Source: Pseudorhizobium banfieldiae
GTDB taxonomy: Bacteria; Pseudomonadota; Alphaproteobacteria; Rhizobiales; Rhizobiaceae
Length of the DNA: 64,000 nucleotides
Direction: 5' to 3'
Assembly (NCBI RefSeq): GCF_000967425.1
Contig: NZ_FO082820.1
Coordinates: forward strand, 3,731,501-3,795,500
Part shown: piece after piece, positions 5,031-8,032 of the stretch
Numbering within the stretch: the first letter of the stretch is position 1
Layout: every line of letters begins with the position of its first letter
Made by a program: the position numbers and the translations under genes
The notes under the pieces: model-generated
Database searches by the model: none
What the model saw: only the letters and a program-made list of their open reading frames with translations
Told to the model about the DNA's origin: nothing

Positions 5031-5420
5031 ATGGTCAGGCGCATCTCGTCCGGGTCCCCTTTCGAAGCCAGCATCGGCTATTCCCGCGCCGTCGTGGATG
5101 GCGACATGGTCTATGTCTCCGGGACCACTGGTTACGACTATGCGCGGATGGAAATGCCCGAGAATGTGGCCGACCAAACGCGCAACGCTCTGGCGACGAT
5201 CGACCAGGCCTTGAGGGAGGCGGGAAGCGGGCTGAACGACATTCTTCGTGTCCGTTACTACCTGACCGACATGGCCGACTACGAGCAGATCGTTCCGGTT
5301 CTTGGGGCGGCGTTCGGTGAAATCAGGCCAGCGGCCACCATGGTGGTTTTCGGCTTGATCGCGCCTGAAATGAAGGTCGAGATCGAGGTAACGGCACGGA
5401 TCGGCGCCGGTACATCCTGA
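5031..5420 (+). CDS. RidA family protein (reactive intermediate deaminase-like)
   Basis: A 129-residue member of the YjgF/YER057c/RidA family: SRAVVDGDMVYVSGTTGYD near the N-terminus, VRYYLTDMADYEQIVPVL in the middle and RPAATMVVFGLIAPEMKVEIEV near the C-terminus. In true RidA an Arg in the RPAR/RxA region near residue 105 binds the imine substrate; here the sequence is IRPAATMV, so an Arg is present. Family members hydrolyse reactive enamine/imine intermediates made by PLP enzymes, although this subfamily may differ. It sits between leuD and leuB, 15 bases after leuD, and is probably cotranscribed with it. Confidence 0.88.
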   Translation: MVRRISSGSPFEASIGYSRAVVDGDMVYVSGTTGYDYARMEMPENVADQTRNALATIDQALREAGSGLNDILRVRYYLTDMADYEQIVPVLGAAFGEIRPAATMVVFGLIAPEMKVEIEVTARIGAGTS

Positions 5421-5516: not shown

Positions 5517-6626
5517 ATGACGAAGTCTCTCTTCCTGCTTCCTGGCGACGGCATCGGCCCGGAGGCCATGGGCGAGGTCCGCAAGATCATCGCCTATATG
5601 AATGCCGAGCAGGGTGCAGGCTTCGAAACCGATGAGGGGCTTGTCGGCGGTTGCGCCTACGACGCCCACGGCGCGGCAATCTCGGAAGAGGACATGGCCA
5701 AGGCCATGAACGCCGATGCTGTGCTATTCGGTGCCGTCGGCGGCCCGACGTGGGACGACGTTCCTTACGAGGTCCGTCCTGAAGCCGGTCTTCTGCGCCT
5801 GCGCAAGGATCTCGAGCTCTTCGCCAACCTTCGCCCGGCAATCTGCTATCCGGCACTGGCCAACGCCTCCTCGCTCAAGCCCGAGCTTGTCGAAGGCCTC
5901 GACATCCTGATCGTCCGCGAACTGACCGGCGGCGTCTATTTCGGCGAGCCGAAGGAAATCATCGATCTCGGCAACGGCCAGAAGCGCGGCATCGACACCC
6001 AGGTCTACGACACCTACGAAATCGAGCGGATCGCAAGCGTCGCCTTCGAACTCGCGCGCACCCGCAAGAACCGTGTCTGCTCCATGGAAAAGCGCAACGT
6101 CATGAAATCCGGCGTGCTCTGGAACCAGGTGGTGACGGAAACGCACAAGCGCGCCTTCTCCGATGTCCAACTCGAGCACATGCTGGCGGACGCCGGCGGC
6201 ATGCAGCTTGTGCGGGCGCCTAAGCAGTTCGACGTCATCGTCACCGACAACCTCTTCGGCGACATGCTGTCCGACGTGGCCGCCATGCTTACCGGCTCGC
6301 TTGGCATGCTGCCCTCCGCCTCCCTTGGTGCTCCCGACGCCAAGACCGGCAAGCGCAAGGCGCTCTACGAACCTGTCCATGGCTCCGCACCGGACATTGC
6401 CGGCAAGGGCATCGCCAACCCGATCGCCATGATCGCCTCCTTCGCCATGTGCCTGCGCTATTCCTTCAACCTGGTCGCAGAAGCCGACCGACTGGAGAAG
6501 GCGATCGCCAATGTCCTCGACCAGGGCATCCGCACCGGCGACATCATGGCCGACGGTTGCCGACAGGTCGGGACGTCCGAGATGGGCGATGCCATCCTCA
6601 AGGAATTCTCCGGCCTTTCTGCCTGA
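5517..6626 (+). CDS. leuB: 3-isopropylmalate dehydrogenase
   Basis: A 369-residue NAD-dependent dehydrogenase that oxidises and decarboxylates 3-isopropylmalate in leucine synthesis. Family landmarks are [18 protein letters not shown] at the N-terminus, the Arg-rich substrate loop [18 protein letters not shown] near residue 93, [14 protein letters not shown] near 138, the metal site [20 protein letters not shown] near 238 and the NAD site [20 protein letters not shown] near 285. Length and motifs are complete. It follows leuD and a RidA gene on the same strand but is separated by 96 bases containing a possible RNA switch, so it may be independently controlled. A strong hairpin terminator follows. 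Confidence 0.97.
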
Positions 6627-6633
6627 AAAGATC

Positions 6634-6669
6634 TCAGTGGCGCTTCAAACGGAGCGCCACTGATTTGAG
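6634..6669 (+). terminator. Terminator after leuB
   Basis: An 11-bp perfect stem (TCAGTGGCGCT / AGCGCCACTGA) with an 8-base loop starts 8 bases after the leuB stop and is followed by TTTGAG. The T-run is short but the stem is strong. It separates leuB from the asd leader region. Confidence 0.75.
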
Positions 6670-6713
6670 GACTCCGGCTTCCGACACAGGCACGGCCTCA
6701 ACAGCGGTCGGCG

Positions 6714-6741
6714 CTTGACTCCACATCAGAATCTTCTAAAC
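6714..6741 (+). promoter_or_regulatory. Candidate sigma-70 promoter for the asd leader
   Basis: CTTGAC at 6714-6719 matches the rhizobial -35 consensus exactly. CTAAAC at 6736-6741, 16 bases later, is a fair match to the -10 CTATAT. Transcription would start near 6748, giving a short lead-in of about 20 bases to the small ORF at 6767. Evidence is sequence match only. Confidence 0.5.
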
Positions 6742-6766
6742 ACCACGTCGAACGGGAAAGCATCCT

Positions 6767-6886
6767 ATGAACCGCCGCGAGTATCACATCGCTGCAGACC
6801 TCCAGCCGGCACATGGTGCTGGGCTGCATTCATGCTTTTCCGCCTCCAGCAAAACCACGGCCAAAACGACGACGAAAACCGTCTGA
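6767..6886 (+). CDS. Putative Thr/Lys-rich leader peptide upstream of asd
   Basis: A 39-codon ORF (ATG 6767, TGA 6884) beginning MNRREYHIAADLQPAHGAG and ending in KTTAKTTTKTV. Six of the eleven codons before the stop's neighbourhood are Thr (two ACC, four ACG) and three are Lys, all AAA, whereas Lys codons in the following asd gene are nearly always AAG. A weak ribosome site (GGGAAAG) precedes the ATG. Thr and Lys are both end products of the pathway branch that Asd feeds, so the tract resembles the control codons of an attenuator leader peptide. Mutually exclusive hairpins follow before asd. This is inference from sequence; I know of no described peptide of this kind, and the ORF could be fortuitous. 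Confidence 0.5.
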   Translation: MNRREYHIAADLQPAHGAGLHSCFSASSKTTAKTTTKTV

Positions 6887-6907
6887 CGTCTCTGGCCCGC
6901 CGCTCTC

Positions 6908-6970
6908 TCCCCGGTTAGGCCGGGGACAAGGAAACCCGCGATCCGTCGCGGCTTCCCCCTCAACGGATCG
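6908..6970 (+). promoter_or_regulatory. Candidate attenuator hairpins between leader ORF and asd
   Basis: Three elements are visible. Hairpin A is TCCCCGG-(TTAGG)-CCGGGGA (6908-6926). Hairpin B is CCGCGA-(TCCG)-TCGCGG (6936-6951). A competing pairing joins CGATCCGT (6939-6946) with ACGGATCG (6963-6970) and cannot coexist with B. The last element abuts the purine-rich GAGGAGAGG (6970-6978) upstream of asd. No strong U-run follows any stem, so translational control is as possible as transcription termination. Confidence 0.4.
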
Positions 6971-6997
6971 AGGAGAGGCAGAAAGAGAGCAAAAATC

Positions 6998-8032
6998 ATG
7001 GGTTTCAAGATTGCAGTCGTCGGTGCTACCGGCAATGTCGGGCGCGAGATGCTCAACATCTTGTCGGAGCGGGGCTTCCCGGCTGACGAAGTGGTGGCGC
7101 TTGCCTCCGCCCGGTCGCAAGGCACGGAGGTCTCCTTTGGAGACAAGGTTCTGAAGGTCCAGAACCTCGAAAACTACGACTTCTCCGATACCGATCTCTG
7201 CCTGATGTCGGCGGGCGGCGAGATCTCGAAGAAGTGGTCTCCGAAGATCGGCGCGCAGGGCTGCGTCGTCATCGACAACTCATCGGCTTGGCGCTATGAC
7301 GCCGAAGTTCCGCTGATCGTTCCTGAAGTGAATGCGGATGCTGTCGAGGGCTTCCGCAAGAAGAACATCATCGCCAACCCCAACTGCTCGACCGCCCAGC
7401 TCGTCGTTGCGCTGAAGCCGCTTCACGACGTCGCAAAGATCAAGCGCGTCGTCGTGTCGACCTATCAGTCCGTTTCCGGTGCCGGCAAGGAAGGGATGGA
7501 TGAGCTCTTCACCCAGACCCGCGCCGTCTTCGTCGCAGACCCGGTCGAGTCGAAGAAGTTCACAAAGCGCATCGCTTTCAACGTCATCCCCCATATCGAT
7601 AGCTTCATGGAAGACGGCTACACGAAGGAAGAGTGGAAGGTGCTGGCCGAAACGAAGAAGATGCTCGATCCGAAGATCAAGGTGACCTGCACCGCCGTCC
7701 GGGTTCCCGTCTTCATCGGTCACTCCGAATCGGTCAACATCGAGTTTGAAAACGAGATCACCGCCGACCAGGCACGAGATATCCTGCGCGAGGCGCCGGG
7801 CTGCCTCGTCGTCGACAAGCACGAAAACGGCGGCTACGTCACCCCTGTCGAATGCGCCGGCGAAGACGCGACCTACATCTCGCGCATCCGCGAGGACGCG
7901 ACCGTAGAGAACGGGCTGAACATGTGGGTCGTCTCGGACAACCTGCGCAAGGGCGCGGCGTTGAATGCCGTGCAGATTGCAGAACTTCTCATCAACCGCG
8001 GCCTGATCAAGCCGCGCAAGCTCGCGGCCTGA
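6998..8032 (+). CDS. asd: Aspartate-semialdehyde dehydrogenase
   Basis: A 344-residue NADPH-dependent enzyme that reduces aspartyl phosphate to aspartate semialdehyde, the branch compound for lysine, diaminopimelate, threonine and methionine. The N-terminal Rossmann motif is VVGATGNVGREMLNIL near residue 6. The catalytic Cys lies in IIANPNCSTAQLVVALKPL near residue 130, and the substrate-binding segment is HIDSFMEDGYTKEEWK near 198. Length is usual. The start at 6998 is at the N-terminal consensus MGFKIAVVGATG, with AGAGAG upstream. It is preceded by an unusual 371-base leader (6627-6997) with a promoter, a Thr/Lys-rich ORF and hairpins, and followed by a hairpin without a T-run. Confidence 0.97.
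   Translation: MGFKIAVVGATGNVGREMLNILSERGFPADEVVALASARSQGTEVSFGDKVLKVQNLENYDFSDTDLCLMSAGGEISKKWSPKIGAQGCVVIDNSSAWRYDAEVPLIVPEVNADAVEGFRKKNIIANPNCSTAQLVVALKPLHDVAKIKRVVVSTYQSVSGAGKEGMDELFTQTRAVFVADPVESKKFTKRIAFNVIPHIDSFMEDGYTKEEWKVLAETKKMLDPKIKVTCTAVRVPVFIGHSESVNIEFENEITADQARDILREAPGCLVVDKHENGGYVTPVECAGEDATYISRIREDATVENGLNMWVVSDNLRKGAALNAVQIAELLINRGLIKPRKLAA

Follow-up and report, generated by a model that had tools for sequence, protein, structure and literature searches.

Threonine, lysine, methionine and isoleucine share a precursor that is made by aspartate-semialdehyde dehydrogenase (Asd). In Escherichia coli, thrL encodes a leader peptide with runs of Thr and Ile codons and acts through transcription termination before thrABC. 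If an asd leader was predicted earlier, this would most likely be in the work of Vitreschak et al. of 2004. In Sinorhizobium meliloti 2011, the translated small ORF SEP5 was described as a proposed leader peptide; it lies in the 5'-UTR of a gene called aspartate dehydrogenase in that report, carries six codons for Thr and three for Lys towards its end, and was reported as conserved only in Sinorhizobium (PMC10117765). The leader peptide itself is already known, as SEP5 of S. meliloti, and the statement of the original prediction that no asd leader peptide had been described in rhizobia does not hold in the light of that description (PMC10117765). For the LEU element of leuA in Actinobacteria, the passages on it judge classical attenuation unlikely (PMC1262725). 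A full-text literature search of open-licence papers gave no further paper that we recognised as reporting an asd leader: the term "asd" occurs 0 times in PMC1273637, PMC2965389 and PMC4833913, and in the passages retrieved from PMC4117421 it stands for anti-Shine-Dalgarno or is used in other ways.

In this study, we analysed the region upstream of asd in a stretch of 64,000 nucleotides of Pseudorhizobium banfieldiae (contig NZ_FO082820.1), which is called the window and in which all positions are counted from the first letter. A leader rich in Thr and Lys codons and two competing RNA folds, both common to many relatives, point to a switch before asd that would raise asd output when these amino acids are scarce. 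We hold with fairly good confidence that the asd leader is a conserved ribosome-mediated attenuator, with its output, in the best explanation, at translation initiation. The traits of such attenuators are present, namely a short ORF between a promoter-like element and asd, codons for pathway products clustered before its stop, and crossing helices (B:C and X:Y2) placed for a choice by ribosome position. The features of the locus are as follows.

6634 to 6663, + strand: inverted repeat of 11 bp, directly 3' of leuB and followed by TTTG (stem listed on the minus strand by the scan)
6714 to 6741, + strand: promoter-like element of the leader-asd transcript, from sequence, with CTTGAC at 6714-6719, CTAAAC at 6736-6741 and a spacer of 16 bases
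6767 to 6886, + strand: leader peptide ORF of 39 codons, from the ORF list, stop TGA at 6884-6886
6851 to 6883, + strand: Thr/Lys cluster KTTAKTTTKTV, from codon counts, the proposed stall zone
6859 to 6863, + strand: segment A, GGCCA within the leader codons, possible partner UGGCC at 6893-6897 (weak, Rhizobium-type only)
6888 to 6897, + strand: segment B, GUCUCUGGCC, directly 3' of the leader stop, forms the 5' strand of hairpin B:C (ON)
6902 to 6911, + strand: segment X, CU-rich, GCUCUCUCCC, in which CUCUCUCCC is the B:C loop and GCUCUCU can pair with the SD region (OFF)
6909 to 6925, + strand: P3, local hairpin CCCCGG...CCGGGG, incompatible with B:C
6918 to 6927, + strand: segment C, GGCCGGGGAC, 3' arm of B:C
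6930 to 6956, + strand: P5, hairpin that separates C from the SD region and varies in sequence, from folding
6970 to 6990, + strand: Y2/SD region with the partners of X, GAGGAGAG at 6970-6977 and AGAGAGC at 6984-6990
6998 to 8032, + strand: asd, aspartate-semialdehyde dehydrogenase (NF011456, 530 bits, cut-off 223)

The gap between leuB (5517-6626) and asd has the 371 bases given in the original prediction, and the parts that it had listed there, a promoter-like CTTGAC-N16-CTAAAC and a 39-codon ORF ending in KTTAKTTTKTV with six Thr and three Lys in eleven codons, were found at 6714-6741 and 6767-6886. Judging by its sequence, the inverted repeat at 6634-6663 is likely the leuB terminator on the + strand, and as such it likely sets the leuB transcript apart from that of asd. 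Farther upstream, between leuD and leuB, there is a small Rid/RutC-like ORF (5031-5420; TIGR00004, 66 bits, under the cut-off of 106). The promoter-like element was not called by a generic sigma-70 scan, and a loose pattern for the whole promoter was found in no more than 28 of 109 near relatives, in 10 of 29 sequences from the family and in 0 of 30 at the order level. Therefore, the −35 element was tested by its position in the near set of 109 sequences, made up of the window, 28 same-genus loci and the 80 closest named loci listed. TTGAC was found at 164-174 bases 5' of the leader stop in 102/109 sequences, against 7/654 control windows, and an in-frame ATG was present 34-44 codons 5' of the leader stop in 102/109 as well.

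The leader ends in KTTAKTTTKTV, that is, six Thr and three Lys among eleven codons, and 9 Thr plus Lys in 12 codons was reached by 0/2000 dinucleotide shuffles. As had been predicted, every Lys in the cluster is encoded by AAA, whereas asd itself has 25 AAG and no AAA; this preference extends to the relatives, with 200 AAA and 44 AAG in 94 distinct leader tails versus 58 AAA and 1743 AAG in 80 asd genes. In 47 divergent representatives, 68% of the codons from −12 to −2 encoded Thr or Lys when read in frame, a share that dropped to 14% and 5% in the two remaining frames, while A occupied codon position 1 in 74% and position 3 was mixed. By codon, the Thr plus Lys share was 49-85% from −2 through −12 and decreased to 21% at −16, about where the enrichment ends, and to 4% at −18. 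The last codon (−1) was spared this enrichment and is mostly Val or Ala. The order of Thr and Lys and the exact residues differ between lineages, and the peptide N-terminal to the tail is poorly conserved. In named Rhizobium-type loci the Thr/Lys stretch is nearly invariant, third positions included, which is what could be expected if an A/C-rich stretch were conserved as RNA (an unstructured spacer, an enhancer or a Rho loading site) and Thr and Lys were a by-product of its composition. We regard this as very improbable in view of the frame-specific enrichment and the mixed third positions reported above, of an alignment of 56 sequences in which 162/162 gaps inside the coding part were of length 3, and of the fact that 7 Thr plus Lys in 12 codons was attained by 0/1000 dinucleotide shuffles.

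The comparison of asd upstream regions covered 201 sequences, namely the window itself, 80 named loci, 28 of 29 same-genus loci (56 same-genus genomes searched), 32 of 33 loci from further genera in the family and 60 of 61 loci at the level of the order. The uncounted rows were L003 and L179, in which the asd start was not found, and G062, with a weak Asd match. The named loci were the 80 closest to the query among the matches listed, and include Rhizobium, Agrobacterium, Sinorhizobium, Neorhizobium, Shinella, Ciceribacter, Pseudorhizobium, Martelella, Mesorhizobium and Roseibium. A strict rule (a startable ORF with at least 6 Thr plus Lys in its last 12 codons, at most 250 bases from asd) was passed by 80/80 of these closest named loci listed, 28/28 same-genus, 24/32 other-genus and 24/60 order-level loci, while the controls gave 0/200 on the reverse strand and 3/1000 in shuffles. 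A relaxed rule (at least 5 Thr plus Lys, leader stop between −160 and −60 relative to asd) was passed by 163/201 sequences, or 168 after five short leaders were added by hand. Six short or low-scoring leaders, L130, L132, L133, L135, L137 and L201, were picked by hand so that their stop position could be read; of these, L130 had already passed the relaxed rule. In these 168 sequences, the first base of the leader stop lay a median of 114 bases from the asd ATG (range 72-152).

By the relaxed rule with the hand additions, the leader was present in 29/32 other genera of the family and in 25/50 other families of the order. The expected conservation of frame and codons thus holds for the closest named loci listed (80/80), for the genus (28/28) and for the gap lengths (162/162 of length 3); it does not hold in 3/32 other genera (L113, L116, L134) and 25/50 other families, where the leader is absent by rule. 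One locus scored as lacking it, L200, has a Thr/Lys tail at −201, outside the position rule. Outside the order, a similar tail was seen in 2/24 readable loci of the class (L215 and L234), these loci being the best matches of 96 genomes; L211, L218, L221 and L226 had no readable asd start. In two leaderless loci, L196 and L199, an upstream frame (leuB-like by eye) ends 13 and 35 bases 5' of asd; therefore, a control region has no space there. One genome (G149) carries two asd paralogues, L203 and L204, of which the closer one has a Thr/Lys/Ile leader and the distant one fails the rule.

Four Sinorhizobium loci (L068, L090, L093, L107) carry exactly KTTAKTTTKTV. The ORF of the window would thus be a homologue of SEP5, an identity that rests on the match of the cluster because S. 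meliloti is absent from the named loci. The occurrence of the leader in other genera contradicts the Sinorhizobium-only distribution of SEP5. The conservation of a small ORF may be overlooked where codon composition, and not sequence, is retained.

It must be considered that the small ORF could encode a trans-acting protein whose place before asd is incidental, since SEP5-SPA was found as a soluble protein (PMC10117765) and the trp leader peptide of S. meliloti is described as acting in trans (PMC7298713). The poor conservation of the N-terminal part does not fit such a protein, nor does the retention of Thr and Lys codons despite changing order and synonymous codons, and the conserved pairing described below begins directly after the leader stop. 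We therefore consider this explanation quite improbable, although the peptide may have a role in trans additional to a control in cis.

Pairing was assessed by a cross-pairing test in which each segment was scored with its own partner versus the partners of other lineages, using 47 representatives and 20,000 permutations; the choice of representatives relied on 6-mer similarity, and the test takes them as exchangeable, an assumption that is approximate. When contiguous helices were scored, z was 5.2 for B:C, 6.0 and 7.2 for X:Y2 and 4.4 for P3 (X:C), each with 0/20,000, in comparison with 0.3 for B with the SD region and −0.3 for the codons with the SD region as controls; an overlapping reference window reached 2.6. 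By duplex energy, B:C had z −7.6 (0/20,000) and P3 z −3.2 (8/20,000); X:Y2 was weaker, with z −2.4 and −2.6 (162 and 107 of 20,000), the controls being 0.0 and −0.2. In the alignment of 56 sequences, 94.1% of the B:C cells were paired, 5/9 pairs had changed on both sides, and B:C exceeded 500/500 shuffles on all five measures. For P3, 96.1% of cells were paired in the same alignment and three of the five measures were above all shuffles; its pair-type counts were matched by 465/500 shuffles.

The pairing was kept while the sequence changed. B:C is UCUCUGGCC:GGCCGGGGA in the window and CCGUUCGCUCGACCCG:CGGGGCGAGGGAACGG, with two mismatches, in L156, and X:Y2 is CCCUCACC:GGUGAGGG in L110, CGCUUCCC:GGGAAGCG in L131 and CGCUCUUUCC:GGAAAGGGCG in L166. 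B:C begins at most 6 bases from the first base of the leader stop in 59 listed sequences; in the window, B lies 4-13 bases past that base. Outside the Rhizobium-type leaders, Y2 lies mostly 20-40 bases 5' of the ATG, upstream of the SD itself. Since B:C and X:Y2 cross, they are mutually exclusive or else form a pseudoknot, in which the two could coexist. As for the mutually exclusive hairpins of the original prediction, B:C and X:Y2 form the pair with the strongest support, each conserved in a lineage-specific manner (0/20,000 permutations each), and its reading as a leader-peptide attenuator is supported by this pairing together with the conserved frame and Thr/Lys codons.

Other structures were also considered. 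The hairpin A:B, which contains the Thr/Lys codons, was rejected as the controlling structure (energy z −1.9, 586/20,000; contiguous-helix z 0.6, 5929/20,000), and it is kept only as a weak candidate for an addition in Rhizobium-type leaders. A hairpin within the leader ORF (codons −32 to −13) was weak, with a mean z of −0.34 in the 47 representatives and −0.95 in 40 of the 109 near relatives. Rfam, including the lysine riboswitch and the Thr leader, gave no match at gathering score in the window; four sub-threshold matches in 6620-7060 (E up to 5) were taken as chance. So was the best sub-threshold match, ilvB-OMG, which is on the minus strand with 18.1 bits versus a gathering score of 95.9 (E 0.0045).

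The proposed mechanism is as follows. The leader would be translated in this species, and its codons −12 to −2, mostly Thr and Lys, would report the supply of Thr-tRNA and Lys-tRNA. When Thr or Lys is short, the ribosome would stall 5' of the leader stop, and while it paused within the Thr/Lys zone, B would be mostly or wholly free; the nascent RNA would then form B:C with the anti-SD-like X held in its loop, so that the ribosome-binding region of asd would stay open (ON). When Thr and Lys are plentiful, the ribosome would arrive at the leader stop where, given the size of its footprint, it would sit over B; C would be released, X would pair with the SD region, which is rich in GA, and translation of asd would be shut (OFF).

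The stretch from the leader ORF to the asd start is G+C-rich and structured and, as expected from the original prediction, 6748-6998 folded better than shuffles (−93.1 versus a mean of −79.6 kcal/mol, z −2.65, 1/200 as good). Equilibrium folding of the full leader gave no clean switch; therefore, nascent RNAs were folded. With B free, the minimum free energy (MFE) structure of the nascent window RNA was the B:C hairpin, with 10 plus 4 pairs and the nine-base loop CUCUCUCCC. With the first 14 bases from the stop covered, the MFE structure consisted of P3 and a helix between GCUCUCU (6902-6908) and AGAGAGC (6984-6990) that lies right at the SD. When the window RNA was folded at full length with B free, a third fold was the MFE (−45.5 kcal/mol), with neither B:C nor X:Y2, and in the relatives L041 and L068 the X:SD fold was preferred even with B free. 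The probability of B:C was above 0.5 in 29/47 representatives just after C, 18/47 midway, 23/47 just before Y2 and 1/47 at full length, and in the window it was 0.99, 0.99, 0.16 and 0.00 along transcription. Masking B raised the probability of X:Y2 in 20/47 representatives and lowered it in 2/47, and made the zone just 5' of the ATG less open in 12/47 and more open in 23/47. Because equilibrium folding was mixed and the full-length RNA took a third fold, the model requires co-transcriptional timing. The constrained energies were nearly equal (mean −38.2 kcal/mol for ON and −40.3 for OFF, ON more stable in 11/47), so the switch would be decided by timing and the position of the ribosome.

Instead, the same sensor could cause transcription to end early, by intrinsic or Rho-dependent termination, within the approximately 110 bases that separate the leader stop from asd. 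Classical amino-acid attenuators act in this way, and an S. meliloti attenuator dependent on an upstream ORF is thought to use Rho according to the passages on it (PMC12218461). Nevertheless, no terminator-like site, which a classical attenuator of the trp/thr type would have between leader and gene, was found on the + strand of 6500-7100, and terminator-like sites, with a hairpin and a U-rich stretch, were seen by rule in 3/168 sequences and not in the other 165; moreover, the conserved X:Y2 helix reaches into the SD region and has no U-tract. In three Mesorhizobium-like loci (L111, L125, L138), UUUUCU or a similar sequence comes after the P5 hairpin (CCCGC...GCGGG), which could thus be a weak terminator; the rule called L125 and L138, and did not call L111. 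Given the rarity of terminator-like sites, control at translation initiation is favoured, although the folding calculations were mixed; the output is probably of this kind and not classical termination, and early termination of either type is considered rather unlikely here. Translation of the leader might also merely aid that of asd by coupling or reinitiation, and one transcript probably holds both the leader stop and the asd start. Such an aid involves no sensing and leaves the Thr/Lys codons and B:C unexplained, and the median stop-ATG distance of 114 bases is long for coupling, which makes this explanation extremely improbable.

With respect to what is sensed, Ile and Met synthesis also depends on Asd. 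Among the A-initial codons at −12 to −2 in the 47 representatives there were 237 Thr, 115 Lys, 20 Ile, 8 Met and 3 Ser, and no Asn or Arg, so that Thr, Lys, Ile and Met account for 380/383; Arg and Ser codons not starting with A are present in the tails, for instance Arg at codon −7 in 5/47. The ratio of Ile plus Met to Asn plus Ser plus Arg was 28:3 in leaders and 2559:1561 in asd genes (Fisher p 0.0007, with shared ancestry ignored). Selecting leaders on Thr plus Lys content gives no built-in preference of Ile and Met over Asn, and C-to-T changes at Thr codons could be a source of the excess. Agrobacterium-type leaders (L041, L046, L054, L056, L058, L062, L063, L066, L071) read RITAKTTIKTV, with Thr replaced twice by Ile (ATT) and the first Lys by Arg (CGA). 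Five loci from other genera of the family (L130, L132, L133, L135, L137) have very short leaders, such as MTIRSLTKTSIS, just 3' of the TTGAC element, with Ile and Ser interspersed in the Thr/Lys run. As a tentative extension, to which we give somewhat less than even chances, the leader may be a composite sensor of the whole Asd-dependent family, with Thr and Lys as main codons, Ile and Met as substitutes and the A-initial codons of Asn, Ser and Arg avoided, which would set translation of the branch-point gene by a hairpin with an anti-SD loop and would be old in the Hyphomicrobiales.

In its own genome, the Thr/Lys pattern occurs at asd and at one other place (L205); the latter lies opposite a reading frame of 338 aa, was rejected as a second copy of the leader and was taken as chance. 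No Thr/Lys tail was found within 350 bases 5' of hom (best 3/12) or lysC (best 1/12). Of the genes examined, therefore, asd alone has the putative device. Its product stands at the branch point towards lysine (and the diaminopimelate of the cell wall), threonine, isoleucine and methionine. If the model is true, a terminator-free leader sensing two branches would be a widespread and compact two-input control of the Asd node. It would account for a translated small ORF of S. meliloti while amending its reported distribution, and it offers base pairs that can be tested.

In comparison with known systems, the asd leader shares with SEP5 the cluster of six Thr and three Lys codons, the position of the small ORF and the proposal of a leader peptide; the passages on SEP5 in PMC10117765 give no RNA structure or mechanism, whereas the leader is here traced across the order and provided with a switch model. 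What is new beyond those passages is its distribution, a codon logic of two amino acids (perhaps of the Asd family) and a proposed RNA switch with a likely translational output. With thrL it has in common leader codon runs for two pathway products, which are Thr and Ile in thrL; they differ in that thrL ends transcription of thrABC, while here the codons are Thr and Lys, the target is asd and no terminator was found. In trpL/rnTrpL of S. meliloti, as proposed for asd, the position of the ribosome on the leader ORF selects exclusive RNA folds; trpL differs in having one amino acid, a terminator as output and a peptide of 14 residues, according to the passages on it (PMC7298713). Finally, the LEU element of leuA in Actinobacteria resembles the asd leader in the codon run of its leader ORF and in a pseudoknot or alternative fold with the SD of the target gene, with the difference that in the LEU element it is the run of codons that is described as pairing with the SD, whereas the asd leader would use the separate segment X (PMC1262725).
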